Below, in pieces: positions 203 to 16,699 of a stretch of DNA of 22,212 bases; position 1 is the first letter of the stretch; the number at the start of each line of letters is the position of its first letter. The stretch is from a virus: the IMG/VR virus record IMGVR_UViG_3300042451_001514, positions 1 through 22,212 of that record, one strand, 5' to 3'. Position numbers and translations under genes: made by a program. The notes under the pieces are model-generated. The model had not been told where the DNA came from. It made no database searches and saw only the letters and a program-made list of their open reading frames with translations.

Positions 203-1702
203 ATGGCGTTAGGTGTAAGAATTTTAAGTGATAATTTGAGTGGTCAAACCACAAATGTTACGTATTTTCCCGATACAGGAGGTACAATTAATTTAGGTAC
301 TCAAGTTTTTCCATTTAACTATATATCAAGTTATTATTACGGTATATATGATTGTTATGTTCCAACATATGGTTACACATATTCATTAAATGTACCAGCA
401 CCAACACCAACAGTAACACCTACACCAACAGTAACACAAACAACAACGCCAACAATAACTCCAACACCAACTAGTACATTTGGGTTGTCACCAACCCCAA
501 CTAGTAGTCAAACCGCAACACCGACTCAAACACAAACTAACACTCAAACACCTACAAATACTCAAACACCAACCGTAACACCAACTAGTACTTTAACACC
601 AACACCTTCCGTTACCATTGGATTAACTCCAACCGCAACTGCAAGTAATACACCAACACCGACAGTTACTCCAAGTATTACACCTACTAACACCGAAACA
701 CCAACTAATACCCCTACTAATACTGAAACTCCAACTAATACCCCTACTAATACTGAAACACCTACTAATACCCCTACGAATACTGAAACTTCAACATCGA
801 CACCTACTCAAACACCAACTAATACAGAAACCCCAACTAACACACCAACTAACACTCAAACACCAACTAACTCACTATGTAAAACTTATTTATTATTTGG
901 TGGAACAACAAATCAAACAACGTTTGCGGGTATTGATTGTGACGGATTCCCTTACGATTTCTTCTTAGAAGTTTTTGACACTCTAACCTATTGTGCTCAA
1001 AGTGTTATTATTGTTGATGGTGATGGTTTTGCAACTTATTTAGGTGGATGTCCTTTACCAACTCCAACCGCAACTCCAACAAATACTTCAACTCAAACGA
1101 CAACACCATCGGTTACATCAAGTAATACACCGACACCAACTGAAACACCGACTCAAACACCAACAAATACGGAAACGCCAACTAACACACCTACAAACAC
1201 TGAAACTCAAACACCAACACCAACAAACACTGAAACTCCAACTGAAACTCCAACTAATACACCGACCAATACGGAAACTCCAACTAATACACCGACTAAT
1301 ACGGAAACTCCAACTAATACACCGACCAATACAGAAACTCCAAGTGAAACTCCAACTAATACACCAACCATTACTAACACTCAAACACCAACAAGTACTC
1401 CAACAAATACTGTAACTGTAACGCCAAGTGTAACTGTTGGATTAACCCCAACACCTACCCCAACTCATAGTAGAATTTCATTTACCGTTTACCCAGGTAG
1501 TGTTCAATTAGACGCTTGTAATCAAGTAAACCCATCAACAACAATTTATGGTGATGACCCACAATTTGATTTATCAACTCAATTTTGGAATGTACCTAAC
1601 GGTAGTTCAACAATTAATATGTCAGGTTACTATCAAAATAATGGTTATGTAGTTCAACTTGATTTAAATGGTTTTACTATTGGATTTGGTGTATTATGCT
1701 AA
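203..1702 (+). CDS. Mucin-like Thr/Pro-repeat virion surface protein
   Basis: This 499-residue protein is built as beads on a string. An N-terminal module (about 1-62, with a YFPDTGGTINLG segment and many Tyr) is followed by a long Thr/Pro/Asn/Glu repeat. A Cys-containing module lies at about 226-283, then a second Thr/Pro stretch, then a C-terminal module at about 424-499 whose core (DAC...TIYG...FDL..FWN...GYY) is homologous to a module in the protein at 1978. The 10-residue unit PTNTPTNTET is repeated in tandem in both Thr/Pro stretches. There is no signal peptide or membrane segment. Low-complexity Thr/Pro shafts separating globular modules suggest an extended, possibly O-glycosylated fibre or capsid decoration; this is inference. 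The start is supported by the open N-terminal module and the TATTTATT motif just upstream. Confidence 0.7.
   Translation: MALGVRILSDNLSGQTTNVTYFPDTGGTINLGTQVFPFNYISSYYYGIYDCYVPTYGYTYSLNVPAPTPTVTPTPTVTQTTTPTITPTPTSTFGLSPTPTSSQTATPTQTQTNTQTPTNTQTPTVTPTSTLTPTPSVTIGLTPTATASNTPTPTVTPSITPTNTETPTNTPTNTETPTNTPTNTETPTNTPTNTETSTSTPTQTPTNTETPTNTPTNTQTPTNSLCKTYLLFGGTTNQTTFAGIDCDGFPYDFFLEVFDTLTYCAQSVIIVDGDGFATYLGGCPLPTPTATPTNTSTQTTTPSVTSSNTPTPTETPTQTPTNTETPTNTPTNTETQTPTPTNTETPTETPTNTPTNTETPTNTPTNTETPTNTPTNTETPSETPTNTPTITNTQTPTSTPTNTVTVTPSVTVGLTPTPTPTHSRISFTVYPGSVQLDACNQVNPSTTIYGDDPQFDLSTQFWNVPNGSSTINMSGYYQNNGYVVQLDLNGFTIGFGVLC
701..790 (+). repeat. 30-bp in-frame tandem repeat (three units)
   Basis: Three consecutive 30-bp units, at 701-730, 731-760 and 761-790, each encode PTNTPTNTET and differ at a few bases only. 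Degenerate versions extend on both sides. The period is a multiple of three, so gain or loss of a unit would change shaft length without a frameshift. Confidence 0.85.
1251..1340 (+). repeat. 30-bp in-frame tandem repeat (second array)
   Basis: Three consecutive 30-bp units, at 1251-1280, 1281-1310 and 1311-1340, encode the same 10-residue unit as the array at 701-790. They use partly different codons (CCGACCAATACGG in place of CCTACTAATACTG). Within-array identity is higher than between-array identity, which suggests local unit expansion. Confidence 0.85.
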
Positions 1703-1735
1703 TAACAGAAATAAAAAAATTAAACACAAAATAAA

Positions 1736-1948
1736 ATGGCCTGTAGCAAATACACACTAACAAACACTGGAACAACTCAAGTGAATTTCAACTATAGAAG
1801 ATGTGACGACACAATGTGGGAATATCAAGTTGAACTAGAACCAAATCAGACAAAAAACATTTGGTTGATTGATAACTCTTATTCTATTGCTTCGTTATTC
1901 GTACCTAATGTTATTTTAATAAATGATGGTGTATTTCCACCAAACTAA
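1736..1948 (+). CDS. 70-residue stand-alone virion head module, paralogue of the next gene's N-terminus
   Basis: The protein starts MACSKYTLTNTG and ends at GVFPPN. Over its whole length it closely matches residues 1-70 of the protein at 1978; shared segments include NFNYRRCDD, WEYQVEL, PNQTKNIWLI and NGVFPP or DGVFPP. It stops where its neighbour runs on into a Thr/Pro shaft, so it is either a complete small anchor protein or a remnant that lost its shaft. The leader between 1703 and 1735 is A-rich with no Shine-Dalgarno sequence and no TATTTAT motif, so it is probably co-transcribed with the gene at 203. The short all-beta-looking sequence with two Cys suggests a small virion component, but no family is recognised. 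Confidence 0.7.
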   Translation: MACSKYTLTNTGTTQVNFNYRRCDDTMWEYQVELEPNQTKNIWLIDNSYSIASLFVPNVILINDGVFPPN

Positions 1949-1950
1949 AG

Positions 1951-1958
1951 TATTTATA
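1951..1958 (+). promoter_or_regulatory. TATTTATA motif, candidate late promoter
   Basis: The octamer lies directly after the stop of the 70-residue gene and 19 bases before the ATG at 1978. The rest of the leader is A-rich. It belongs to the set of motifs seen at 192, 7713, 8127, 12368(-), 13939(-), 15749, 17943(-), 17981 and 22151. Confidence 0.4.
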
Positions 1959-1977
1959 TTTAAAAGAAAATAAAACG

Positions 1978-3153
1978 ATGGCATGTAGTAAATATACTTT
2001 GACGAACACGGGTTCAACTATAATAAACTTTAATTATAGAAGATGTGACGATTCACTTTGGGAGTACCAAGTTGAATTAAATCCAAACCAAACTAAAAAT
2101 ATTTGGTTAATTAATAATACGTATTCAATTGCACCTTTATTTCAGAGTAGTGTAGTATTGGTTAATAACGGTGTATTTCCACCTGTTTACCCATCACCAA
2201 CACCTACAATGACACCATCGACTACTCCAACTAATACACCAACACCAAGTGTTACTGCAACTAATACACAAACACCAACAAATACTTCATCTAACACTCC
2301 AACACCGACTAACACTGAAACTCCAACATCAACACCTACACCAACAAATACTGAAACTCCTACTAACACACCAACTCAAACTCAAACAGGAACCCCTAAT
2401 GTAACCGTAACACCAACTAATACTGAAACCCCAACTAATACTCCAACTCAAACTCAAACAGGTACTCCTAACGCAACTCCAACACCTACTAACACTGGTA
2501 CACCAACTAATACACCTACACCTACTATCGCTAGAGTTTCATTTACAGTCTATTACGGAGCGACACAAGATGATGCTTGTGGTCAATACAATAGTACTTC
2601 AACGATTTACGGTAATAATCCACAGTTTGATTTATGTTCCGAATTTTGGAATGTTGCAACTGCAGGACCTACTGTTGATATGACAGGTTTCTATAAAAAT
2701 GGTAATTATGTTGTTGAACTTGATTCGAACGGTAATACGGTTGGACTTGGCTCATTATGTCAAACTTTAACACCAACACCAACAAATACTGAAACACCAA
2801 CGGCAACCCCAACAAATACTCAAACACCAACAAATACTACAACAGTTACTACAACTGAAACACCAACGGCAACCCCAACAACAACACCAACTGCAACATT
2901 TGGTTACTACACTTATAGTTTAGGTACTGGAGGAACAGCTAATGATGCATGTACCGACTTTATTTCAGCACCTAACACAATTTACGGTACAGTTGCTGGA
3001 GGACCTGGTCCAAATGCAGGTGAATTCTTATACTTTAATACTGCGTTAACAATACCTGTTGCTAACGGTTACTACTCTAACGGAACTGCTGCATTCCTTG
3101 TATCAGGAGGAGCGGGTGAAGTTACGGGTGTCGACCCAACAGCTTGTATCTAA
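1978..3153 (+). CDS. Mucin-like Thr/Pro-repeat virion surface protein with duplicated head and globular modules
   Basis: This 391-residue protein has five segments. Residues 1-74 form a head nearly identical to the preceding 70-residue protein. Residues 75-181 form a Thr/Pro shaft containing a 24-residue tandem repeat (PTNTETPTNTPTQTQTGTPN core). Residues about 186-261 form a module homologous to the C-terminus of the protein at 203. A second short Thr/Pro shaft (262-305) is followed by a C-terminal module (308-391) with the same DAC...TIYG...GYY pattern. The head-shaft-bead-shaft-bead architecture matches a fibrous virion decoration. The gene ends 21 bases before a strong terminator and closes the surface-protein operon. 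Function is inferred from composition and context only; the modules could be receptor-binding beads or glycan-displaying spacers. Confidence 0.7.
   Translation: MACSKYTLTNTGSTIINFNYRRCDDSLWEYQVELNPNQTKNIWLINNTYSIAPLFQSSVVLVNNGVFPPVYPSPTPTMTPSTTPTNTPTPSVTATNTQTPTNTSSNTPTPTNTETPTSTPTPTNTETPTNTPTQTQTGTPNVTVTPTNTETPTNTPTQTQTGTPNATPTPTNTGTPTNTPTPTIARVSFTVYYGATQDDACGQYNSTSTIYGNNPQFDLCSEFWNVATAGPTVDMTGFYKNGNYVVELDSNGNTVGLGSLCQTLTPTPTNTETPTATPTNTQTPTNTTTVTTTETPTATPTTTPTATFGYYTYSLGTGGTANDACTDFISAPNTIYGTVAGGPGPNAGEFLYFNTALTIPVANGYYSNGTAAFLVSGGAGEVTGVDPTACI
2341..2484 (+). repeat. 72-bp in-frame tandem repeat (two units)
   Basis: Two 72-bp units, 2341-2412 and 2413-2484, encode PTNTETPTNTPTQTQTGTPN plus four variable residues each, followed by a partial third unit. 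The repeat lies in the Thr/Pro shaft and keeps the reading frame. Confidence 0.8.
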
Positions 3154-3230: not shown

Positions 3231-4496
3231 ATGAAAATTTTCGTTCAAATCGCGGCTTACAGAGACCCTCAGTTGGTCCCAACAATTAAAGACATGTTGG
3301 CAAATGCCAAAAAACCAAATAACCTTGTTATCGGTATTGCAAGACAATATAGCGACGAAGATGGGTTTGATAATTTAGATGAGTATAGAAAGGACAAAAG
3401 ATTTAGAATCTTAGATATTCCTTATCAAGATGCCAAAGGTGTCTGTTGGGCAAGACATCAAGTTCAACAACTTTACAAAGGTGAAACATACACATTACAA
3501 ATTGATTCTCACATGAGATTTGTTAAGGATTGGGATGATATCCTTATCAAAATGATAAAGGGGTTACAGAAGGACGGGTATAAGAAGCCTCTACTTACGG
3601 GCTACGTTCCTTCTTTTGACCCCGATAATGACCCTGCAGGAAGAGCTCAAGATGCATGGAGAATGGTGTTTGACCGATTCATTCCTGAAGGTGCGGTATT
3701 CTTCTTACCTGAAACAATTCCAAGATGGAAAGAAATGAAAAAACCCGTGACCGCAAGATTCTACTCGGCTCACTTCTGTTTTACATTAGGTGAGTTTTCA
3801 ACTGAAGTTCAACACAACCCTGAATATTATTTCCACGGTGAAGAGATTTCAATCGCTGCAAGAGCTTACACTTGGGGTTATGATTTGTTTCACCCACACA
3901 TTCCTGTTGTTTTCCACGAATACACTCGTAAAGGTAGAACAAAACAATGGGATGATGATAAAACTTGGGGTCAACGAAATACCCATTCGCATTTAACAAA
4001 TAGAAAACTATTTGGTATGGATGGTGAAAAACAAGAAGGTCATGATGGGCCTTATGGATTTGGACCAGTTAGAACTTTGACTGATTATGAAAAATACGCA
4101 GGTATTCTTTTTTCAAAAAGAGCAATTGACAAACACACATTAGATAAAAATTACCCACCAAACCCATACAATTTTGAAACAGAACAAGAATGGAAAGATA
4201 GTTTCTGTATGATGTTCAAACACTGTATTGATATCGGATATTCTCAAGTTCCTGAAACAGATTATGAATTTTGGGTAGTTGCATTTCATAACGATAAAGA
4301 TGAAACTTTATTTAGAAAAGATGCAGACAAAAATGAAATTGCAGGTTTTATGAGAGACCCTGACAAATACTGTAAAGTATGGAGAGAATTCCAAACCGAT
4401 GAAATGCCTTCATACTGGGTTGTATGGCCTTACTCAGAATCTAAAGGATGGTGTGATAGAATCACAGGTAGATTAACCCACAATCACGTTAGTTAA
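3231..4496 (+). CDS. Glycosyltransferase of the Skp1 GlcNAc-transferase-like family (PF11397 type)
   Basis: The N-terminus (MKIFVQIAAYRDPQL) and the block from about residue 66 to 100 (KGVCWARHQVQQLY ... LQIDSHMRFVKDWD) are characteristic of the GlcNAc glycosyltransferase family typified by Dictyostelium Gnt1. Gnt1 transfers GlcNAc from UDP-GlcNAc to a hydroxyproline in a protein. The D92-S-H94 triplet is the expected metal and nucleotide-sugar binding motif. A later segment with HGEEISIAARAYTWGYDLFHP fits the acceptor and catalytic region. At 421 residues it is longer than the catalytic core, and the C-terminal quarter is unassigned. It starts after the terminator at 3175 and is coupled by TAATG to the next gene. 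The acceptor is unknown: the adjacent Thr/Pro proteins are attractive candidates, host glycans are the alternative. Confidence 0.8.
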   Translation: MKIFVQIAAYRDPQLVPTIKDMLANAKKPNNLVIGIARQYSDEDGFDNLDEYRKDKRFRILDIPYQDAKGVCWARHQVQQLYKGETYTLQIDSHMRFVKDWDDILIKMIKGLQKDGYKKPLLTGYVPSFDPDNDPAGRAQDAWRMVFDRFIPEGAVFFLPETIPRWKEMKKPVTARFYSAHFCFTLGEFSTEVQHNPEYYFHGEEISIAARAYTWGYDLFHPHIPVVFHEYTRKGRTKQWDDDKTWGQRNTHSHLTNRKLFGMDGEKQEGHDGPYGFGPVRTLTDYEKYAGILFSKRAIDKHTLDKNYPPNPYNFETEQEWKDSFCMMFKHCIDIGYSQVPETDYEFWVVAFHNDKDETLFRKDADKNEIAGFMRDPDKYCKVWREFQTDEMPSYWVVWPYSESKGWCDRITGRLTHNHVS

Positions 4497-5230
4497 TGAA
4501 TATTACGAGTATCCCTAAGTTTGTCGTTAATTTAGAAAGACGACCTGACCGATTAGAACATATCCAAAAAGAAATGGATTATATGGGATGGGATTATGAA
4601 GTATTCAAAGCAGTTGATTTAAATAATCATGGTGGTTGTACTCTATCCCATACTCAAATCATTAAAATCGCCAAAGAACGAAGGTATGATTCGGTCATGG
4701 TGATTGAGGATGATTGTACTTTTTTACCCTACTCAAAAGATTTAATTAATAAAATTGAAACCGAATCAGGCGAATTTGAATTTGGTGTTATTAATCTTTC
4801 TCCAACATTAAATCGACCAGTTAATCGTAGTATAGAACAACCATTATTTTTAGACATAACAAATTTACCACCAAAGAAAGAACACGAAAGAGGTATATTT
4901 GCAACTAACATGATGATTTATCATAATTCAATTTATGATAATGTTTTGGAAATGGAAAAACAGGAAATTTTAGGTTATTATGCAATTGACGATTATATCT
5001 ATCAATTTGTTTATCCCATCAAACCAAGTTATTCTCCAATATTACCAATTGCTCCGCAAATGAGTAGTTGGTCTGATGTATCTCAAGGACAATACAATAA
5101 TTTTTATACCCAAACTTATAATTGGAATCTATATAGTCCATATAAAATACCTTCAGAATATTTACACGGTACATTAACACACGAATTAAAAACAAATAAA
5201 CAACACAAAGAATTTACATATGTCAGTTAA
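4496..5230 (+). CDS. Glycosyltransferase family 25-like protein
   Basis: Family 25 includes lipooligosaccharide galactosyltransferases and collagen beta-galactosyltransferases. The marks seen here are the opening KFVVNLERRPDRLEHI (residues 8-23), the GCTLSH motif at 47-52 and the acidic VMVIEDDCTF motif at 68-77, in the expected order and spacing. At 244 residues it is a single-domain enzyme with no signal peptide or membrane anchor, so it should act in the cytoplasm of the infected cell. The ATG overlaps the upstream stop as TAATG, and its own end overlaps the next gene by 11 bases, so the four transferases look translationally coupled. Donor sugar and acceptor cannot be read from the sequence. 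Confidence 0.75.
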   Translation: MNITSIPKFVVNLERRPDRLEHIQKEMDYMGWDYEVFKAVDLNNHGGCTLSHTQIIKIAKERRYDSVMVIEDDCTFLPYSKDLINKIETESGEFEFGVINLSPTLNRPVNRSIEQPLFLDITNLPPKKEHERGIFATNMMIYHNSIYDNVLEMEKQEILGYYAIDDYIYQFVYPIKPSYSPILPIAPQMSSWSDVSQGQYNNFYTQTYNWNLYSPYKIPSEYLHGTLTHELKTNKQHKEFTYVS

Positions 5231-6038
5231 ATTTATTACATCAATATACAGCGATTTGTATGGTACTGAGTATGGTGGACGAATTGGTAGAGGAGGTCAT
5301 TATAGATATAGTTTATTATCACTCTTAAAAATGACTAATGCCGATTTCTTATGTTACACATCAGATAGAGAATTACCATCATTAATCTCATTTTTTTATG
5401 AAACACATGGTATATCACCAGATAAAGATGTTGAAATGACTAAAAAATCTGATAGATGTATTGAGGTACAATATAGTAAATTCCATTGGTGGTGGAATGA
5501 AGATAAATCTTATGATTATTATTATTGGATTGATGCTGGTCTATCACATTGTGGGTTAATCCCTGTAAAATATTTGACAGGAACTCATCCTGAACAAAGA
5601 TACTACGAATCAACATTATTTAACAACAATTTTTTAAACAACGTAATTGAAGATACTGGTGATAAATTTTTAATTCTTGGAAAAGAAAATGACCGAAATT
5701 ATTGGTCAGGTACATTAGACCCTAAGTGGTATACTAATTGGGAGAGAGGCCTTCACATTATTGGAGGATTGTTTGGAGGTCATAGAGATAAGTGGGACGA
5801 GATTGTAACATTATTTGAAACTTATACTAAAAATGTAATAACTGAGGATAAAGGTTTACCTCACGAAGAAAATATAATGACATTAATGTATTATAACCAT
5901 AAAGAATTATTTGAACGTAAACATTTTGATATTTGGTGGTGTAGAGATAACGCACCTGCAGGTGTTACAGATGAGATGTTTGAATTAAATAAAAGCTTTT
6001 TTAGAATTTTAGAAGAATTTAATAGAATATATGAGTAA
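5220..6038 (+). CDS. HtrL/YibB-like (WlaTC family) putative glycosyltransferase
   Basis: This 272-residue protein opens with a typical FITSIYSDLYG strand-loop and has YYWIDAGLSHCG at about 101-112, where D105 is the likely metal or sugar-nucleotide ligand. A GGLFGG segment follows near residue 180. These features match the HtrL/YibB group, which is linked to lipopolysaccharide or capsule decoration in bacteria and has a GT-A-like fold; biochemical proof in the family is thin. Its start codon lies 11 bases inside the previous gene and its end overlaps the next by 8 bases. The N-terminal half of the next gene has the same fold pattern (WIDGGL, GGFFGG), so the two are probably an ancient duplication. 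Substrate is unknown. Confidence 0.6.
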   Translation: MSVKFITSIYSDLYGTEYGGRIGRGGHYRYSLLSLLKMTNADFLCYTSDRELPSLISFFYETHGISPDKDVEMTKKSDRCIEVQYSKFHWWWNEDKSYDYYYWIDAGLSHCGLIPVKYLTGTHPEQRYYESTLFNNNFLNNVIEDTGDKFLILGKENDRNYWSGTLDPKWYTNWERGLHIIGGLFGGHRDKWDEIVTLFETYTKNVITEDKGLPHEENIMTLMYYNHKELFERKHFDIWWCRDNAPAGVTDEMFELNKSFFRILEEFNRIYE

Positions 6039-7707
6039 TATAACTTTAGTAACAGGAATATGGGATATTGGTCGAGGGGAATTGTCCGAAGGATGGTCAA
6101 GACCTTACCAACATTATTTAGATAAGTTTGAACAACTTTTGAAGTGTGACGAAAACATGATTATTTTTGGAGATGAAGAACTTCAAAAGTTTGTTTTTGA
6201 AAGACGAAGTGAGGAAAACACCCAATTCATACTTAGACCAATGTCTTGGTTTAGAGAGTCTGAGTTTTTTGATAAAATTCAAAAAATCAGAACTAATGAA
6301 AATTGGCAAAACTTAGCAGGTTGGTTAAAAGAATCAACTCAAGGTAGATTAGAAAACTACAATCCGTTAGTTATGTCTAAAGTATTTTTATTACATGACG
6401 CAAAAATCATGGACCGATTTAATTCTGAACACATGTTTTGGATTGACGGTGGTTTAACAAATACAGTTCACCAAGGATATTTTACACATGATAAAGTTCT
6501 TAATAATTTATCAAAATATATCTCCAAGTTTTCTTTTATTTGTTTTCCTTATGATGCCGAAAATGAAATACACGGATTTGAGTATAATAAGTTAAATTCA
6601 ATTGCAGGTGCTAAAGTCAATAAAGTTGCAAGAGGTGGATTCTTTGGTGGACCAAAACATACAATTGGTGATATTAATGGGATTTATTATGGTTTATTAA
6701 AATCAACCTTAGAAGAAGGTTATATGGGTACTGAAGAATCGATATTTAGTATTATGTGTTATAAACATTCTGATTTGGTTAATTATTTTGAAATTGAATC
6801 TAATGGTTTAGTTGGTAAATTTTTTGAAGATTTAAAAAATGATGACCTAAAGCCTAAATCAGAAAATATTCATAAAGAAACGAACACATTAGACATTAAT
6901 AAAGTTGGTTTATATGTTATTACATTTAATAGTCCAAAACAATTTTCAACTTTAATTGATTCGATGAATGCTTATGACAAAGATTATTTATTAAAAACTA
7001 AAAAGTATTTGTTAGATAATTCAAGTGATGAGTCGACATTTAATGATTATGCTAAATTATGTGAAGAAAATGGTTTTGAACACATTAAGAAAGATAATTT
7101 AGGGATTTGTGGTGGTCGTCAGTGGATTGCAGAACATTTCCAAAATAAAACAGATTTGGATTTTTATTTGTTTTTTGAGGATGACATGTTTTTTTATCCA
7201 AAAGAAGGTGATGTGTGTAGAAATGGTTTTAACAGATATGTCCCAAATTTATTTTCAAAAACATTACAGATTGTTAAAAAAGAAAACTTTGATTTCTTAA
7301 AACTAAATTACAGTGAATTTTTTGGCGATAACGGAACTCAATGGTCTTGGTATAATGTACCTCAAAGTGTTAGAGAAAAATATTGGCCAGGTAAAGACAG
7401 ATTACCTGTTCAAGGACTAGACCCAAATGCTCCGAGAGCGGTGTATGATTCGGTTAGTTCATTCCAAGGTATTCCATATGTAACGGGTGAAGTGTATTAT
7501 TGTAATTGGCCTCAAATCGTTACAAGAACAGGAAACCAAAAAATGTTTTTAGACACAACATGGGGACATCCATTCGAACAGACATGGATGAGTCATATGT
7601 ATCAGTTAGTTAAGAAGGGTGAATTGTATCCTGGTTTATTACTTATGACACCAACAGAACACGATAGATTTGAACATTACGAAAGAAGTTTAAGAAAAGA
7701 GTCATAA
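6031..7707 (+). CDS. Two-domain glycosyltransferase: HtrL/YibB-like plus GT2-like
   Basis: The 558-residue product has two enzyme-like halves. Residues 1 to about 260 start ITLVTGIWDIGRGEL, the HtrL/YibB signature, and carry WIDGGL at 137-142 and GGFFGG further on. Residues about 290-558 begin VGLYVITFNSPKQFSTLIDSM, a GT-A Rossmann-type start, and contain FFEDDMFF with acidic residues at 383-385, the DXD-like site of family 2 enzymes. A charged linker joins them near 270-290. A bifunctional enzyme could add two sugars in succession. It overlaps the upstream gene by 8 bases and is the last of the glycosyltransferase operon; the next gene has its own candidate promoter. Acceptor and donors are not identifiable. 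Confidence 0.65.
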   Translation: MSNITLVTGIWDIGRGELSEGWSRPYQHYLDKFEQLLKCDENMIIFGDEELQKFVFERRSEENTQFILRPMSWFRESEFFDKIQKIRTNENWQNLAGWLKESTQGRLENYNPLVMSKVFLLHDAKIMDRFNSEHMFWIDGGLTNTVHQGYFTHDKVLNNLSKYISKFSFICFPYDAENEIHGFEYNKLNSIAGAKVNKVARGGFFGGPKHTIGDINGIYYGLLKSTLEEGYMGTEESIFSIMCYKHSDLVNYFEIESNGLVGKFFEDLKNDDLKPKSENIHKETNTLDINKVGLYVITFNSPKQFSTLIDSMNAYDKDYLLKTKKYLLDNSSDESTFNDYAKLCEENGFEHIKKDNLGICGGRQWIAEHFQNKTDLDFYLFFEDDMFFYPKEGDVCRNGFNRYVPNLFSKTLQIVKKENFDFLKLNYSEFFGDNGTQWSWYNVPQSVREKYWPGKDRLPVQGLDPNAPRAVYDSVSSFQGIPYVTGEVYYCNWPQIVTRTGNQKMFLDTTWGHPFEQTWMSHMYQLVKKGELYPGLLLMTPTEHDRFEHYERSLRKES

Positions 7708-8189: not shown

Positions 8190-10919
8190 ATGATATCTAA
8201 CGAAGAAATTGAATCTTTCTTGCACGGGAATGACCCTGAAGAATTTATTGTAGCAATCGAATTTGACTACGCATCCAACTCCATTTATAAAATCAAAGAA
8301 ATTCCTGGTAAAGGAAAAGAAATCCGTAAGGATACATTTACACCATTCGCTTGGGTAGGTGATTTACGCAATATTAACTTTTATGGTGGTTCCAAAGCTG
8401 CTCAAAAAGAAGCCATGGCTAAACATGGTATCATGATTGACAAATTGGAAACTCATGGTGATGAACGATTAGAAAGAGGTATGACCTTTATGGTTAAATC
8501 TCTTAAAGGTTATCGTGAACTTATTCAATTCTTCCGTGAGGGTGGATGTGACCCATGGGGTGAAAAGACAAAGGATAAAATCATTATTCTTCCACCTGTA
8601 GAACAATACCTCATCTCAAAAGAAAAACGACTATTTAAGGGATTCGAGAATTACGATGAAGTAACCCGACTCGTATATGACTTAGAGACGACCTCTCTTG
8701 AACCACAGGACGGTCGTATCTTCATGATTGGAATTAAAACAAATAAAGGATACCACAGAGTTATCGAATGTATTGATGAATCGGAAGAACGAAATGCAAT
8801 CATAGAGTTCTTCAACGTAATCAACGAATTAAAACCAAGTATCATCGGTGGTTACAATTCAGCAAACTTTGACTGGCATTGGATTTTTGAACGTTGTAGA
8901 ATTTTGGGAATTGACCCAAAAAAGATTTGTAAGTCATTGCACCCCCAACATTCATTTACAAGAAAAGACGGGATGTTGAAACTTGCCAACGAGGTGGAGA
9001 CATATACTCAAACTTCAATTTGGGGTTATAACGTAATTGACATTATTCACGCAGTTCGTAGAGCTCAAGCAATCAACTCAAGTATCAAGGCTGCAGGTTT
9101 GAAATACATTACAAAGTATATCAACGCTGAATCACCAAGTCGTGTTTATATTGACCACGATAATATCGGTAAAATGTTCCTTAACAAAGAGGAGTATTGG
9201 TTAAACATTCAGAATGGTAACTACAAGAAAGCCAACAATCCTGCGTACGATAACTTAGACACAAAGTTCCCTAACGTATACAAAAAGATTACGGGTGACA
9301 AGATTGTAGAGATGTATCTTGACGATGACTTAGATGAAACCTTAAAGGTTGACCAAGAGTTTAATCAGGGTTCGTTCCTACTTGCTGCGATGATTCCAAC
9401 AACATACGAGAGAGTATCTACAATGGGTACCGCAACTTTATGGAAGATGCTGATGTTGGCTTGGTCTTATAAACATGGACTTGCGATTCCTGAAAAACAA
9501 GGTAAGACAGACTTCGTAGGAGGTCTCTCACGACTACTTAAGGTTGGTTATAGTAAGAACGTACTTAAACTCGACTTCTCGTCTCTGTATCCATCTATTC
9601 AGTTGGTACACGATGTATTCCCTAAGTGTGACGTAACAGGTGCAATGAAAGGAATGTTAAAATACTTCCGTGACACTCGTATCAAATACAAACAACTTGC
9701 GGAACAATATTACGAAACTGACCGTAAGAAATCTGAATCGTATGGTAATAAACAATTACCAATTAAGATTTTCATCAACTCGATGTTCGGTGCTTTGTCT
9801 GCTCCACAGGTATTTGCGTGGGGTGACATGTATATGGGTGAACAGATTACTTGTACAGGTAGACAATACCTACGTCAGATGATTAAGTTCTTTATGACAA
9901 AAGGATATGTTCCTTTGGTAATGGATACGGACGGTGTGAACTTCTCTACTCCTGACGATGCAAAAGACAGAGTTTATGTTGGTCGTGGATTGAATTGGAA
10001 AGTTAAGTTGGGTAAAGAATATTATGGACCTGAGGCTGACGTTGCAGAATACAATGATATATTCATGAGAGGTGAGATGGCACTTGATACGGATGGGGTT
10101 TGGCCTTCATGTATTAACTTGGCTCGTAAGAACTATGCAGTTATGGATGCTAAGGGTAAAATCAAATTGACAGGTAATAGTATCAAGTCAAAGAAACTTC
10201 CAATCTATATCGAGGAGTTCTTGGATAAAGGAATTAAAATGTTATTAGAAGGTGATGGTCAGGCGTTTGTTGAGTATTACTATGAATACTTACAAAAGAT
10301 TTTTGACAAACAAATTCCGTTAAGTAAAATCGCACAACGAGCTAAAGTTAAATTATCTCTTGATGATTATAAGAAACGATTAAATACAAAAACCAAAGCA
10401 GGTAATAGTATGAGTCGTATGGCTCACATGGAACTTGCATTACATGAAAATCTTGCCGTAAATCTTGGTGATGTTATCATGTATGTTAATAACGGATTAA
10501 GAGCGTCTCATGGTGATGTTCAGAAAAAAGGTGATGGGGTTCAACTTAATTGTTATATGTTAAGTAAGGATATATTGGAAAACAACCCAAACTTAACGGG
10601 TGACTATAATGTGCCAAGAGCAATCTCAACATTCAATAAGAGAATGGAACCATTAATGGTAGTATTCCAAGATGAGGTTAGAAATAACTTAATTGTTAGT
10701 GACCCTGAAAAAAGAGGTATCTTTACAAAGGCACAATGTGAATTAATTAACGGACATCCATTAGGTAATGGTGACCAAGACAGTTTACAAGAAGATGTGC
10801 TTGATGTTACCGAACAAGAATTAAAGTATTGGGAAAAAAGAGGATTAAGCCCTGACTATATGTATGACTTTGCCGAAGAGGATTGGAAAGAAAAATTAGG
10901 AATTCTTGAGTCCGTCTGA
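8190..10919 (+). CDS. DNA polymerase, family B (T4 gp43-like) with 3'-5' exonuclease
   Basis: This is the replicative polymerase, 909 residues, close to T4 gp43 in size. The exonuclease domain shows Exo I as VYDLETTS (D164, E166), Exo II as GGYNSANFDW (N223, D228) and an Exo III-like Y376-L-D-D-D380. The polymerase domain shows motif A as KLDFSSLYPS (D462), motif B ending INSMFGALSAPQ (N530-G534) and motif C as VMDTDGVNF (D579, D581). All catalytic acids are present, so it should be active. Motif C reads DTDG rather than the usual DTDS. The N-terminal 150 residues correspond to the family's N-terminal domain. It sits between structural and surface genes rather than in a visible replication cluster, and its 3' end overlaps a convergent minus-strand gene by 24 bases. 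Confidence 0.95.
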   Translation: MISNEEIESFLHGNDPEEFIVAIEFDYASNSIYKIKEIPGKGKEIRKDTFTPFAWVGDLRNINFYGGSKAAQKEAMAKHGIMIDKLETHGDERLERGMTFMVKSLKGYRELIQFFREGGCDPWGEKTKDKIIILPPVEQYLISKEKRLFKGFENYDEVTRLVYDLETTSLEPQDGRIFMIGIKTNKGYHRVIECIDESEERNAIIEFFNVINELKPSIIGGYNSANFDWHWIFERCRILGIDPKKICKSLHPQHSFTRKDGMLKLANEVETYTQTSIWGYNVIDIIHAVRRAQAINSSIKAAGLKYITKYINAESPSRVYIDHDNIGKMFLNKEEYWLNIQNGNYKKANNPAYDNLDTKFPNVYKKITGDKIVEMYLDDDLDETLKVDQEFNQGSFLLAAMIPTTYERVSTMGTATLWKMLMLAWSYKHGLAIPEKQGKTDFVGGLSRLLKVGYSKNVLKLDFSSLYPSIQLVHDVFPKCDVTGAMKGMLKYFRDTRIKYKQLAEQYYETDRKKSESYGNKQLPIKIFINSMFGALSAPQVFAWGDMYMGEQITCTGRQYLRQMIKFFMTKGYVPLVMDTDGVNFSTPDDAKDRVYVGRGLNWKVKLGKEYYGPEADVAEYNDIFMRGEMALDTDGVWPSCINLARKNYAVMDAKGKIKLTGNSIKSKKLPIYIEEFLDKGIKMLLEGDGQAFVEYYYEYLQKIFDKQIPLSKIAQRAKVKLSLDDYKKRLNTKTKAGNSMSRMAHMELALHENLAVNLGDVIMYVNNGLRASHGDVQKKGDGVQLNCYMLSKDILENNPNLTGDYNVPRAISTFNKRMEPLMVVFQDEVRNNLIVSDPEKRGIFTKAQCELINGHPLGNGDQDSLQEDVLDVTEQELKYWEKRGLSPDYMYDFAEEDWKEKLGILESV

Positions 10920-11231
10920 AGATAAAATATACCAGTTACCAACACAAAATCTAAATTCAATACAAGCGTACTTGTCAGCAACAATTTCATCGTAATCTTC
11001 ATCAATTCTACCAATATCAGGTTTAATTGTTAAATGAGTCATTGATTTTATAACTACATGGTCTGTTGTTTTTGAGTCTAAAATAACTGTTGATTCTGCA
11101 ACATTTCTAATAATGACACATTCCTCACCGTTTGTTCTATATTCTCTTTCAGACACTATTGAAATTTCTGATGTTTCAAGGATTTCACCATTAATCAATC
11201 TTGTTGATGGTATTGTTCTAATAATTGCCAT
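10896..11231 (-). CDS. Conserved-looking hypothetical phage protein, 111 residues
   Basis: The product begins MAIIRTIPSTRLINGEI and is made of short beta-strand-like segments (ECVIIRNVAESTVILDS, HVVIKSMTHLTIKP), with an aromatic end GNWYILSSDGLKNS. The repeating strand pattern suggests a small beta-sandwich or beta-helix virion protein, but no family is recognised. It starts 3 bases after the stop of the upstream minus-strand gene and has no promoter motif of its own, so it should be translated from the same mRNA. The last 24 bases overlap the end of the polymerase gene on the other strand. Confidence 0.65.
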   Translation of the reverse strand: MAIIRTIPSTRLINGEILETSEISIVSEREYRTNGEECVIIRNVAESTVILDSKTTDHVVIKSMTHLTIKPDIGRIDEDYDEIVADKYACIEFRFCVGNWYILSSDGLKNS

Positions 11232-11234
11232 AAA

Positions 11235-12356
11235 TTATATTACGTATATTTGACGAGGCATTGCTCTGAATTTCATTTGTTTATTTAGATTTTCAGCAAG
11301 TAATGCTTCTTTTTCCATTACTTTTTCAGGACGTAATCTTGTTAACCAACCTTCAGGTCCTGTCAATTCCTCAATCAATTTTGTTTTTTCATCTTTACCT
11401 TCGGTCAATAAACTTGTGTAGTCCATTGTTAATTCTGAGTCAGGAGCCTTTAAGTTTCCACTATATTTTCCTCTAACTCTACCTAATGTTTCTTTAACAT
11501 ATGCGGTGAACCATCTTCTCACCCATTGTTGAGCGGGTACATTTAAATCAGTCCAAGTCATTTCCTCTAAAGGAACTTCGTTTGGCATTTTGATTACGTC
11601 AGGGTTATTCTTCAAACAATCTGCTCTACTGTCAGGAGTTGTTTCATAATACCAATACCATACAGCTTTACCGACATAACTACTATATTGAGTCCAGTTA
11701 AAGTTATTACCAGGTGCATTGTAAAGTTGTAAATCTTTTTTACCGTCAGGTAGTGCGGTAATTCTATAAGTTAAAGAACCACCAAGAATTCTGTTTAAAA
11801 TATTTGATTCTTGCATTCTTATTAAGTAGTCAAAACCTGACATCATAAAATAAGAACCTTGATAACCCATTTGTGCAAAACCAGCTTCACTGGCGCCTAA
11901 ACCAACACCACCAAATCCACCAATACCCCCCATACCAAATGCTGTCCATGGTTGATTACTAAACCATAAAACTTCATTGATTTCACGACCAGCAGGTATT
12001 TCATAGTTTTGTTTGTCCCTTTCAAGGATGATATAATCTTTCTTTAATACCCAAGGACCTTGAGCTTGAAGACCAACAATTTTAGAATATGAATATGAGA
12101 ACTGTTGCTCAAAATCCATTGTTCTTGTGATTAACGCTTGTGCAACAGATTTTTCAGTCATGTTAAGATTAACCAAGTTAACCCACTGACTATCAATTAA
12201 CCAATTCAAGATATACTGTTCATAATCTTGAATGGATAATTCCATTAGAGAATCCATCATTTCGTCAGTGACTTCGACACTACGTAATGGTGCACCCAAG
12301 AGATGTTTAATCCTTGTATATATTTTTGACCTTTCTGGTTCTGGTATAACTGACAT
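11235..12356 (-). CDS. Probable virion structural protein with Gly-rich loop
   Basis: This 373-residue protein starts with a helical segment (KIYTRIKHLLGAPLRSVEVT, then DEMMDSLMELSIQDYEQYI) that resembles the N-terminal helices of phage head-tail connector or adaptor proteins. A central region (about 130-175) is very rich in Gly (FGMGGIGGFGGVGLG) and Met, followed by Trp/Tyr-rich strands and a Lys/Glu-rich helical C-terminus. No enzyme motif is visible. A neck or connector role is an inference from the N-terminal resemblance and the nearby neck genes. A TATTTATT motif ends four bases before its ATG, so it may head its own transcript together with the 111-residue gene. Confidence 0.6.
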   Translation of the reverse strand: MSVIPEPERSKIYTRIKHLLGAPLRSVEVTDEMMDSLMELSIQDYEQYILNWLIDSQWVNLVNLNMTEKSVAQALITRTMDFEQQFSYSYSKIVGLQAQGPWVLKKDYIILERDKQNYEIPAGREINEVLWFSNQPWTAFGMGGIGGFGGVGLGASEAGFAQMGYQGSYFMMSGFDYLIRMQESNILNRILGGSLTYRITALPDGKKDLQLYNAPGNNFNWTQYSSYVGKAVWYWYYETTPDSRADCLKNNPDVIKMPNEVPLEEMTWTDLNVPAQQWVRRWFTAYVKETLGRVRGKYSGNLKAPDSELTMDYTSLLTEGKDEKTKLIEELTGPEGWLTRLRPEKVMEKEALLAENLNKQMKFRAMPRQIYVI

Positions 12357-12380: not shown

Positions 12381-13910
12381 TTATATGTTATATAAAAGTG
12401 AGTTAGGGGGGAAAACAAAGTTACCATCAACAATTTTTGGTTTCTTATCAAACACCAAAACGTTTTTCCCCCTTTGGAATACCATCCAATCAGTTTTATA
12501 TAATTTTACACTTGCGGTACCTTCCAAAGTTATACCATCATCAGTGACAATCATTTCTCTAAATGGTTTAACTTGTGCGGTGTGTAATTTACCATCTTTA
12601 AATATCTCCAAATCGACACCTTGTATTGCATCTTTTTTGTTTCCTAATTCACCAACAATTTCAACTTTAGCACTTTGACCAAAATATCTTTTAAGGATTG
12701 ATGCTGTAATTTGTTCTCTTTTATCACCCGCTTTATTTTTATCCGTCAATGTTCTCAATAGATTGTGTAACGTAGAACTTTCTTTATCAAAAATTCGGTA
12801 TTTGAAATGGTCTAACGCTCTCACAAATCTCTCAACTTCTTTCTTTTGTTCTGCGGGAGTTTTGTCCATAAAACTAATAGGTTTTTTGTTTGCGATTGTT
12901 GAGATTACTTGATTTAAATCTTTTAATAGGATACAAAATGCGGTATAATTTGTATTTAATTTATTTAATACAGACCTACCAGGTCCCTCAATATTATATA
13001 CGCCAGGTAATTCGTTATTACTTGGTTTGTCGATATAATCATCATTAAAGACTTCTTTAAGAATTCTATTAATACCATTCATGTAAGTCCATTTAATATC
13101 TTGGTTTACATTGAATAACATTCGATAAAATTCGTTATCTGATTTAGAACACATTTCAGATTTACCTTCACTTAAGATTTGTTTCATTTTGGTAGACTCA
13201 ACTAACTTGGTTTCAACTTTCATCTCATACATTTTAGTTACAAAATCCCAATTGACAACTTTCCAAAAGTTTACGATATATTCATCTCTTTTGTTTCTAT
13301 ACTTCAAATAATAAGCATGTTCCCACAAATCTAACCCCAACAATGGAAAACCACCACCTTCAATCACATTCATTAATGGATTGTCTTGGTTTGGAGTTGA
13401 CATAATCTTCAATGTATTTTTGGAGGTTAAGACTAACCATACCCAACCTGAACCAAATCTTTCTTTGGCAATTTTTTCAAATTCTTTTTTGAAGTTTGTA
13501 AATGTCCCCCACTGTTTGGTAATCTTTTTGTAAAGTTCGCCTGTAAGTTTCTTTGGTTCGGGAGTTAACATATTCCAAAACAATGCGTGGTTAAATGCCC
13601 CACCTGCGTTGTTTCTAATTGTTTTATCGAAACGACCGATTGTTTTGATTATTTTTTCTAAATCTAAATCTCCGTATTTCTTTTTTGATAATGCGTCGTT
13701 TAGTTTATCAACATACCCTTTGTAATGTTTATTGTAGTGAAAACTCATGGTTTCAGGGTCAATAAACTGTTTGAGGGCTGAGTAGGAATAAGGTAGTTTC
13801 TCTATTCCGATTTTTTTCATTTCTGTAATCAACAACTCTTTTTCTTTTGTTACGTGATTTTCAAGTATCTGTAACTCTAGTTGTTGGATTTTCTCTTCTG
13901 TTTTTTTCAT
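12381..13910 (-). CDS. Mn-type superoxide dismutase fused to a PD-(D/E)XK nuclease-like domain
   Basis: The 509-residue product has a short N-terminal coiled coil (1-35), a complete Fe/Mn superoxide dismutase domain (about 36-230), a helical linker (231-390) and a C-terminal domain (391-509). All four SOD metal ligands are present: H58 in MSFHYNKHY, H108 in AFNHALFW, and D194 and H198 in GLDLWEHAYY. The second-shell Tyr is Y66. NNAGG before H108 together with Gln175 in NQDNPLM is the Mn-type arrangement. The C-terminal domain shows E399, D433 in GVDLEIF and QVK at 446-448, the E...D...(E/Q)xK order of PD-(D/E)XK nucleases; its nuclease assignment is inference. The SOD would convert superoxide to peroxide. 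The reading frame is continuous with no internal restart, so the fusion looks real. It follows the SNF2 gene. Confidence 0.8.
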   Translation of the reverse strand: MKKTEEKIQQLELQILENHVTKEKELLITEMKKIGIEKLPYSYSALKQFIDPETMSFHYNKHYKGYVDKLNDALSKKKYGDLDLEKIIKTIGRFDKTIRNNAGGAFNHALFWNMLTPEPKKLTGELYKKITKQWGTFTNFKKEFEKIAKERFGSGWVWLVLTSKNTLKIMSTPNQDNPLMNVIEGGGFPLLGLDLWEHAYYLKYRNKRDEYIVNFWKVVNWDFVTKMYEMKVETKLVESTKMKQILSEGKSEMCSKSDNEFYRMLFNVNQDIKWTYMNGINRILKEVFNDDYIDKPSNNELPGVYNIEGPGRSVLNKLNTNYTAFCILLKDLNQVISTIANKKPISFMDKTPAEQKKEVERFVRALDHFKYRIFDKESSTLHNLLRTLTDKNKAGDKREQITASILKRYFGQSAKVEIVGELGNKKDAIQGVDLEIFKDGKLHTAQVKPFREMIVTDDGITLEGTASVKLYKTDWMVFQRGKNVLVFDKKPKIVDGNFVFPPNSLLYNI

Positions 13911-13951: not shown

Positions 13952-15706
13952 TTAATATCGCAGTTCGTTAATTCTTTGTAGTATTTCTTCTGCTGCATCG
14001 GCGGGATGTTGGTTGTCTCCCATAACGGTGGCGATGACTTGTTTTTTGTTGTTTAAGATATCGTAGATGATACCTTCGATTGTGTTTTCGAATATTGGAT
14101 AATAAACCAAAACATTATTTTTTTGACCGTAACGATAAGCTCGGTCTTCAGCTTGAGCGTGGTCTGAAGGTAAGAATGATAAGTCATTCATGATTACCGC
14201 TTCAGCCGCGGTTAATGTAATACCAACACCTGCGGCTTTAATATTACCCACAAATACTTTAACTTTTGGGTTATCTTGAAATTGGTCGACAGAGTTTTGA
14301 CGTTCAACTTTTGACATAGAACCATCAAGTTTAACCGCCAATTTACCAAAGTGTTCGGAAATTTTATTTAATGAATCCGTGAAATTACAGAAAATAATAA
14401 CTTTCTTGTCTTGTTCAAGAATGTTTTCAGCGAGTTCAATAGTTTGTGCAATTTTTTCATCTGCAATGATTTGTCTAACTTTTGTTAATTTTGAAAACTG
14501 TACGGTAAGTGATTTGGACTCTTCAGGGTTTTTGTCGTACCAATCGTAGTATTCACCCATCACATTTTCATATGATTTTGATTTCAATCTTAAATATACG
14601 GGAGTGATAATCTTGTCGGGTAAATCAAGAACGTTTTCTTTTAATCGTCTTAACGTTAAACCAACAGTTCGGTCTCTTAATTCTTCAAGGTTAGAGGCCC
14701 CCGTTACATTCCAAACTTTTCTTCCACCAACATTAAATTGGTATCCTGAACAATAACGGATAGCATAAGCCATCCAATTTTTTGCAACAGGTGAGTCAAT
14801 CAAACTTAATAAGTTGAAATAGTCAATAGGTCGTGATGTCATCGGTGTTCCCGTCAACAACCAAAGTCGTTCAGTTTTTTTAACGATGTCGTTAATTAGT
14901 TTTGTCCTTTGTGCTGTAGCATTTTTGATATAATGTGCTTCATCGATAATAACCAAATCAAAATTGGCAGCAAGAACTTGAGAGTCATCTTTCTTTTTAG
15001 GGTCATGGAAATTTTTTATAATGTCATAATTTATGATAACAAAATCAGCTTCTGTACTGAAATTTTTACTTTCAGCAATGTAGATTGATTTATCTGAATA
15101 ATTTTCAATCTCACGTTTCCAGTTAATCTTTAATGTTGCAGGACAAATGATTAATACTTTTTTTGAACCTGATTCTAATGCCGCAATGATTGTCGATGTT
15201 GTTTTACCAAGACCCATATCATCGGCAAGGATGAATTTTTTATTCTCCACCAATTTTTGAATTGCTTCTTTTTGGTGGTCAAGTGGTGGACGATGTGAAT
15301 ACTTTGAATAATCAATTACAACATCTTTAACTGAATTGTCTTTGATGATTGCCGCCTTTGGTAACCAAAAATCGTGGAATTCTTCTTTGTCTAAAACTTT
15401 ACCCCAAATGTGGTAAGCCTTTTCTTTATCCGCCAATAACTTCTCAACCCATACCTTTTGTGGTATTTCGGTATATAATTTGTCGTCAGCTAATTTCTGT
15501 GCGAAGTAAGCGTCAAGTATAACCCACTTCTTAGCAACCTTTGGTTGTTTGTTGTGGAAATTGATAATGTAATCTGATTGACTTCGTGTCGGATAAAACT
15601 TTTTATTGATTTGTGATTTACGTTTTAATTCCAAAATATAGTTGTTGCCACCCTCATAGGATTCAAGAATTGACATCGCTTTTGACTCTAAACTAACATC
15701 ACTCAT
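13952..15706 (-). CDS. SNF2-family DNA helicase/ATPase
   Basis: This 584-residue superfamily 2 motor has the full SNF2 motif set: Walker A DDMGLGKT at 162-169, motif Ia ICPATLKINWKREIE near 187, DEAH at 255-258, motif III LLTGTPM near 283-289, and motifs V and VI as AGVGITLTAA and EDRAYRYGQ in the C-terminal RecA lobe. The compact, insert-free layout resembles the SMARCAL1 group of annealing helicases. In T4 the comparable job (branch migration, fork restart, late replication) is done by UvsW, so a recombination or fork-remodelling role is likely by analogy. Residues 1-130 form an N-terminal domain that may bind DNA. It is the first gene of the minus-strand block, with the SOD-nuclease gene 41 bases downstream. 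Confidence 0.92.
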   Translation of the reverse strand: MSDVSLESKAMSILESYEGGNNYILELKRKSQINKKFYPTRSQSDYIINFHNKQPKVAKKWVILDAYFAQKLADDKLYTEIPQKVWVEKLLADKEKAYHIWGKVLDKEEFHDFWLPKAAIIKDNSVKDVVIDYSKYSHRPPLDHQKEAIQKLVENKKFILADDMGLGKTTSTIIAALESGSKKVLIICPATLKINWKREIENYSDKSIYIAESKNFSTEADFVIINYDIIKNFHDPKKKDDSQVLAANFDLVIIDEAHYIKNATAQRTKLINDIVKKTERLWLLTGTPMTSRPIDYFNLLSLIDSPVAKNWMAYAIRYCSGYQFNVGGRKVWNVTGASNLEELRDRTVGLTLRRLKENVLDLPDKIITPVYLRLKSKSYENVMGEYYDWYDKNPEESKSLTVQFSKLTKVRQIIADEKIAQTIELAENILEQDKKVIIFCNFTDSLNKISEHFGKLAVKLDGSMSKVERQNSVDQFQDNPKVKVFVGNIKAAGVGITLTAAEAVIMNDLSFLPSDHAQAEDRAYRYGQKNNVLVYYPIFENTIEGIIYDILNNKKQVIATVMGDNQHPADAAEEILQRINELRY

Positions 15707-15761: not shown

Positions 15762-16286
15762 ATGAAACAAACGTCAGAAAAATTGGTACCAATTACAAGA
15801 TTGGGTAAATTCTTCGGTGGTGAAGATTTTGACCTTGATATTGGTATGGGTCAAGAATGGCTCGAGGGTGATATGAACTTCACAATCGTATTGTATCGTA
15901 TTGACCGTTATAAAACAAAGAAAGACAATGTATACGGTGAAGTGGTTGAAGATGGGGTACAATTTATGGCACCTGTCGAATTAAAAGGATTGGTTCAAGT
16001 TATGGCTCCGACCAATAAATTTTATGGTAATTCAAGAGTTGAGATTCAAGAGCCAGGAAGTATGAAATTTTCAATTTATCAAAAACAACTTGATGACTTG
16101 GAAGTTGAAATATTCATGGGTGATTATATTGGATATTATGAAACTGAAGACAGAGTTAGATATTATTCAGTTAGTGATGACGGATATGTTAGGTCTGATA
16201 ATAAACACACTTATGGTGGATACAAACCGTTCTATAGAACGATTACAGCAACATGGGTAAGTGAAAATGAATTTAAAGGAATCTAA
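15762..16286 (+). CDS. Neck protein, T4 gp14-like
   Basis: In T4, gp14 forms part of the neck that closes the filled head and joins it to the tail. The 174-residue product has the features expected of that family: an LYRIDRYKTKKDNVYGEVVE segment near 46-65, a mid-protein block on oxidised-looking beta strands (APTNKFYGNSRVEI), then FMGDYIGYYETEDRVRYYSV, matching the GD(L/Y)IY...FEI strand, and a final TITATW strand. The match is judged by eye and fits the position upstream of the sheath. The stop and the next ATG overlap as TAATG, so the downstream gene is coupled. Confidence 0.6.
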   Translation: MKQTSEKLVPITRLGKFFGGEDFDLDIGMGQEWLEGDMNFTIVLYRIDRYKTKKDNVYGEVVEDGVQFMAPVELKGLVQVMAPTNKFYGNSRVEIQEPGSMKFSIYQKQLDDLEVEIFMGDYIGYYETEDRVRYYSVSDDGYVRSDNKHTYGGYKPFYRTITATWVSENEFKGI

Positions 16287-16699
16287 TGCAAGTAATAATA
16301 ACTGAATCACAATTCGATAATTTATTTTTGGGTAAAAAAGTAATGGTGTATTACAATTTACACAAACACACATTTTCTGTAACATACAACAGTAAAGTTA
16401 TTATGCATGCAGACTATGTTAAATTAGGTGACGTTGAGTTTAGAGTTAGAAAAGGTGGTAAAGAAAAAGTTCGTTCAGAAAAGTCAAAAAATGTTCACGC
16501 ATTTGTGATTGGAAAATTATTAGATTATTGTGAATATCCTTGTGATGACATTCCGAATCCACCATCAGATATGATTGTAACTTATAATCCATACAGATAT
16601 GATTCATTTGTTTATAAACAAAGTGAAGAACCTGTTTATAGAGCTCAAGAAGTTGACATGATTAATTCACAAAATAAACTATTTGTAGTAAAAGAATAA
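16286..16699 (+). CDS. Hypothetical phage protein, 137 residues
   Basis: The product contains VMVYYNLHKHTFSVTYN near residue 19, KSKNVHAFVIGKL near 69 and YNPYRYDSFVY near 101. To me this pattern of His/Tyr/Asn-rich blocks resembles uncharacterised proteins of T4-like phages, but no function is known to me. Lys/Arg-rich segments between the blocks could bind nucleic acid; this is weak. It is coupled to the neck gene by TAATG, and its stop is directly followed by the ATG of the next gene, so it is made together with neck and tail-end proteins. Confidence 0.65.
   Translation: MQVIITESQFDNLFLGKKVMVYYNLHKHTFSVTYNSKVIMHADYVKLGDVEFRVRKGGKEKVRSEKSKNVHAFVIGKLLDYCEYPCDDIPNPPSDMIVTYNPYRYDSFVYKQSEEPVYRAQEVDMINSQNKLFVVKE

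Follow-up and report, generated by a model that had tools for sequence, protein, structure and literature searches.

Why would a phage build a superoxide dismutase (SOD) into the same protein as a nuclease-like domain? The question is raised by one gene in the window, a 22,212-base viral record (i.e. a 22-kb fragment). A preliminary description had proposed that one continuous frame joins a catalytically complete Mn-type SOD, through a helical linker, to a C-terminal domain with the E...D...QxK residue order of PD-(D/E)XK nucleases. No published SOD-nuclease fusion was found in the literature that we searched. SODs of phages are usually taken to be metabolic cargo encoded on its own. In this case an SOD is covalently built into a predicted DNA-processing protein and has been retained across a large and varied lineage, yet can be lost or swapped.

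Two domains in one reading frame

The gene lies on the minus strand, which the preliminary description had not named. It runs from an ATG at 13910 to its end at 12381 and encodes 509 amino acids without interruption; the plus strand over the same interval contains many stops. The features of the locus are collected in Table 1.

Table 1. The fusion gene, its parts and its neighbours in the window
Feature	Positions	Strand	Basis or context
SOD-nuclease fusion gene, 509 aa	12381-13910	-	ORF, Pfam, full-length homologues
N-terminal coil, residues 1-35	13806-13910	-	several SOD-less orthologues have a similar coil joined to the linker
Fe/Mn superoxide dismutase domain, residues 36-230	13221-13805	-	Pfam, PDB match, invariant residues
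Hinge, residues 231-255	13146-13220	-	model confidence lowest at 236-244; SOD/no-SOD junction here
Helical region, residues 256-390	12741-13145	-	conserved GRSxINKLNTNYxxFC motif
PD-(D/E)XK-type nuclease domain (predicted), residues 391-509	12384-12740	-	AlphaFold model, fold matches, invariance
Nuclease residue E399	12714-12716	-	
Nuclease residue D433	12612-12614	-	
Nuclease residue Q446	12573-12575	-	
Nuclease residue K448	12567-12569	-	
SNF2-family helicase/translocase	13952-15706	-	41 nt upstream of fusion gene
Head-tail adaptor (phrog_211) homologue	11235-12356	-	24 nt downstream of fusion gene
Small conserved protein, function unassigned	10896-11231	-	last gene of minus-strand cluster

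The single frame is also found outside the window. A first scan of IMG/VR recovered full-length relatives at 75-100% identity from many independent contigs, and later scans extended these to about 50% identity with the architecture unchanged, giving 124 distinct fusion proteins in all. An assembly chimera or an accident of frame is ruled out by the many independent contigs that share the frame. The final set of 154 distinct proteins consists of these 124 fusions and 30 sequences without an SOD in the same ORF. Three of the 30 are special cases (a homologue from a 735-kb phage, L252; the frameshifted L186; the split locus L292), which leaves 27 SOD-less orthologues. The fusion architecture and the conservation of both active sites are near certain.

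For the SOD half, both Pfam domains of the Fe/Mn SOD family exceed their curated cutoffs (Sod_Fe_N, PF00081, E 2.7e-22; Sod_Fe_C, PF02777, E 1.2e-39) and the best PDB sequence match is a superoxide dismutase (E 1.4e-56, residues 37-229). The metal ligands H58, H108, D194 and H198 are invariant in all 124 fusions, as are H62, Y66, G104, N107, W156, W158, Q175, W196 and E197. The second-sphere residues Y66 and Q175 and the E197-H198 bridge motif are thus present, the residues of the SOD dimer motif are invariant, and the enzyme is probably dimeric. The outer-sphere Gln in the C-terminal half (Q175) together with Gly at 104, found in 124 of 124 fusions, is a pattern that we take to be that of Mn-type enzymes, and the proposal of a catalytically complete Mn-type SOD is borne out. 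Judged by its family, this half is very probably an active enzyme. It has the full ligand set, the second-sphere Tyr and Gln and the bridge motif of the Mn-type members of the Fe/Mn SOD family. Unlike them, it is joined to a coil on its N-terminal side and to a nuclease region of 279 residues, is encoded by a phage and is optional within its lineage. Where dS could be estimated, pairwise dN/dS comes to about 0.02-0.05 in the SOD and 0.04-0.2 in the nuclease; the values are rough, since many pairs are close to dS saturation. Comparison of the sequences thus indicates purifying selection on both halves, stronger on the SOD. Its nearest cellular relatives are mostly from Bacteroidota, at about 45-56% identity, which suggests Bacteroidota hosts.

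For the other half, residues 231-509, nothing significant was found in Pfam, NCBIfam, PADLOC or PDB profile and sequence searches, and the sole signal there was a sub-cutoff match to DUF6602. The profile searches did not place it in a known Holliday-junction resolvase family. A PHROGs match, phrog_1764 (E 7e-4), was set aside, since it involved one of 10 members, covered the helical part only and gave nothing in the window. The evidence for a nuclease comes instead from conserved residues and from structure prediction. Only 12 of the 119 columns of the domain are invariant, and these include E399, D427, G431, D433, Q446 and K448. E399, D433, Q446 and K448 are invariant wherever covered in the 154 distinct proteins, SOD-less orthologues and the homologue from the 735-kb phage included. 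An AlphaFold2 model of residues 231-509, run with 21 sequences, has a mean pLDDT of 87.7. It places E399 in a long helix, followed by strands that carry D433 and Q446/K448. The core order is alpha, beta, beta, beta, then a hairpin and loop in the usual place of the second core helix, then beta. The proposed PD-(D/E)XK domain therefore stands as to its residues, their invariance and a PD-(D/E)XK-like model, but a hairpin and loop replace the second core helix.

Searches with the model against known structures returned matches that are weak by E-value (best 3e-3), of which the credible ones are members of the PD-(D/E)XK superfamily; nuclear receptors and the other listed matches have low probability and were treated as noise. 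The best match is the PD-(D/E)XK homing endonuclease I-Ssp6803I (PDB 2ost; E 3.1e-3, probability 1.00), which presumably shares the E...D...QxK arrangement. It differs from our protein in that there is no sequence-level match and no sign of an intron home, and the target TM-score is only about 0.4. The archaeal Holliday-junction resolvase Hjc (PDB 1gef; probability 0.93, target TM-score 0.54) is also alike in fold. We take Hjc to have ExK where the fusion has QxK; unlike Hjc, the fusion has an extra helical region and an SOD, and no Pfam match to a resolvase family. Among predicted viral structures (BFVD) the top matches were A0A8D9CCA0 (1113 aa) and A0A6J5L953, a 501-aa protein of an uncultured Caudovirales phage that matches the nuclease-region model over 282 columns. 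The latter is annotated as 'superoxide dismutase', a name that leaves out the nuclease half; annotation and structural match together make it very probably the same fusion. Fold and motif together make it likely that the C-terminal domain is an active nuclease, and our best guess is that it represents a previously unnamed PD-(D/E)XK-type family.

How the two halves are held together is suggested by a model of the full-length protein (mean pLDDT 82, pTM 0.55), in which the SOD has SOD-like secondary structure and the nuclease half is well predicted. The region between the two domains is helical, as had been proposed for the linker. The hinge at 236-244 is predicted with low confidence and is therefore probably flexible, which suggests that the two domains are tethered and not rigidly packed.

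SOD-less and split forms of the gene

About 27 distinct SOD-less orthologues occupy the same genomic slot as the fusion gene. In several of these the N-terminal coil runs directly into the linker that otherwise follows the SOD. For example, the SOD-less L235 reads MNFLENKIKIITEKIEAIDQKIDESHLFKQILSESSSEKCS, and the fusion L240 begins MKKIQEKINIITEQL and continues MDESISLREVLSEGKSEKCS past the SOD. In a tree, the SOD-less rows are not confined to one side of a branch. L235 groups with the SOD-bearing L240 with support of 99/99 and, on these sequences, is read as a clear case of SOD loss. The main SOD-less clade may reflect either loss or ancestral absence, as its rooting is too weak because the outgroup branch is very long. 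No Fe/Mn SOD was found anywhere in five SOD-less contigs of 178-309 kb. The same search of two contigs with the fusion gave a single SOD in each, the fusion itself; none of these contigs is proven complete.

One contig, L292, has a natural split of the gene, in which an intact 241-aa ORF for the SOD precedes a distinct one for the nuclease. Compared with fusion-bearing phages, L292 shows 92% identity in the SOD and 96% in the adaptor. Its nuclease is 82% identical to those of SOD-less phages and 59% to that of the best SOD phage. The simplest reading of this single contig is a recombinant allele, with both types being exchanged at one locus. Together with the SOD-less orthologues in the same slot, the split locus indicates that the nuclease half seems to be the core of the gene and the SOD an optional add-on. 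Both forms argue against models in which the nuclease depends on the SOD, and are ready-made comparison proteins. In a further contig a frameshift splits the fusion gene into overlapping SOD and nuclease ORFs (L186:5252-6813), which could be a sequencing error or a recent mutation.

More remote relatives of the C-terminal region are scarce. The only clear one among the records of the phage collection is the stand-alone 290-aa protein of the uncultured 735-kb phage, which lacks an SOD, is 25% identical over 197 residues and retains the E, D, Q and K; no close relatives of it were found in IMG/VR. A pattern scan of the bacterial and archaeal genome collection found no relative of the C-terminal region, and a cellular origin of the window was rejected on this basis.

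Genomic neighbourhood and phage type

The fusion gene directly follows an SNF2 helicase gene, as had been noted from the window, and this arrangement is general, which supports the proposed setting in DNA metabolism. In the de-duplicated set, an SNF2 gene of the same strand is found no more than 1.2 kb upstream in 122 of 124 fusion loci and in all 29 loci whose ORF lacks an SOD (L186 and L292 among them), a total of 151 of 153. The head-tail adaptor homologue is downstream in 116 of 124 fusion loci (within 300 nt) and in 25 of the 29 others, with some contigs ending first. The neighbourhood also includes a DNA polymerase gene, adjacent on the opposite strand.

The assignment to T4-like phages is supported by the major capsid protein gp23, which was matched in all five large related contigs tested (E 4e-62 to 5e-66), although the DNA polymerase has no close named relative. 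Related contigs reach up to 309 kb. The carriers are large, uncultured T4-like phages and form a widespread group. The T4-type late promoter TATAAATA is uninformative, with four sites in the window against 3.2 expected by chance.

These contigs have some other features. In the window, a homologue of the mycobacteriophage L5 gp82 family lies at 16286-16699 (PF25735, E 2.5e-29), two long Thr/Pro-rich repeat proteins with TPTNTETPTNTP repeats, possibly surface or tail proteins, at 203-3153, and four consecutive ORFs (421, 244, 272 and 558 aa) that are glycosyltransferase-like by eye only at 3231-7707. The SNF2 gene of L292 (L292:1342-4188, 948 aa) has an apparent intein inside, with an overlapping 267-aa ORF at 2348-3151 that resembles a homing endonuclease; the SNF2 ORFs of L235 and L222 are similarly enlarged.

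Possible roles of the fusion protein

The explanation that we favour, giving it as a whole slightly under an even chance, is a branched-DNA nuclease that works with the SNF2 protein and carries an optional protective SOD. The nuclease core would be a metal-dependent PD-(D/E)XK-type enzyme within the replication, recombination and packaging machinery of large T4-like phages. It would most likely cut branched DNA, such as Holliday junctions and forks, remodelled by the neighbouring SNF2 translocase, a job comparable to that of endonuclease VII and UvsW in T4. The SOD would be an optional, hinge-tethered module, strongly selected for its own activity, that clears superoxide from around phage DNA and enzymes when the host is aerobic. 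This protective role is a best guess from the family. The branched-DNA role beside SNF2, suggested by genomic context, is a serious candidate that may well be wrong.

The large contigs appear to have a vacancy for a resolvase. Endonuclease VII gave no match above cutoff in those tested (T4 positive control, 3.9e-23) and three below it, near 0.007, in SOD-less contigs. There was no match to RuvC or RusA, the RuvC set being partly different and the contigs not proven complete. The nuclease homologue is present in seven of seven large contigs. A review of jumbo phages proposed that SNF2 helicases stand in for UvsW and that, in phages without a known resolvase, unclassified REase-fold proteins do this job (PMC7824862). 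These have the same proposed role and the same type of partner, but are not described with an SOD (the word 'superoxide' is absent from that paper). In T4 the resolvase gp49 works on branched DNA at the portal and frees packaging that has stalled there (PMC9958956). The vacancy, the presence of the nuclease in all seven contigs and these precedents make a resolvase or branched-DNA nuclease our leading guess.

The neighbouring head-tail adaptor could point to a role in the virion instead. The nuclease would then process DNA at the portal or neck, and an SOD in the particle would protect packaged or newly injected DNA. Chlorovirus particles carry an SOD, which offers a precedent, and the adaptor is the next downstream gene in most fusion loci. 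However, the upstream gene is a helicase and the polymerase is adjacent on the other strand, so that the neighbourhood is one of mixed classes, and we consider a virion or packaging protein unlikely. Accessory functions are often dispensable and traded among phages, as this SOD is, which would fit a protein of counter-defence or host takeover, in which the nuclease degrades host or rival DNA and the SOD dampens an oxidative or abortive reaction of the host. This we regard as improbable, since models of defence systems gave no match and the nuclease keeps a fixed place next to the SNF2 gene whether or not an SOD is present, unlike typical accessory cargo.

The two remaining possibilities concern the fusion itself. 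PD-(D/E)XK enzymes can use Mn, and some proteins with this fold have lost activity. The redox state, dimerisation or Mn loading of the SOD might control or feed the nuclease, an idea to which the invariant dimer-motif residues and a covalent fusion retained among proteins down to about 50% identity lend some weight. However, orthologues in this slot that lack the SOD still have the nuclease residues, one locus is naturally split and the hinge is probably flexible; a coupled enzyme of this kind is accordingly a long shot. Equally doubtful is the more specific proposal that superoxide dismutation or SOD-bound Mn directly protects, feeds or gates the adjacent nuclease, making the oxidative state an input to DNA processing. 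If the halves do cooperate, oxidative stress would be tied to phage DNA metabolism. Least credible, and very improbable, is a C-terminal domain that only binds DNA and targets the SOD to it, the fold being kept without nuclease activity. The lack of a second core helix in the model would be consistent with this, but the four catalytic positions are invariant and the domain persists where there is no SOD to target.

If the nuclease proves to be the junction resolvase that seems to be missing, as in the reading that we favour, a defined recombination enzyme could be assigned to a common group of large phages. Two large phages also encode distant paralogues of 375 and 359 aa (L428:1306-2433 and L429:2027-3106) that share the E...D...QxK core and have an ILNxFDTNP motif, so the domain family is broader than the fusion gene.
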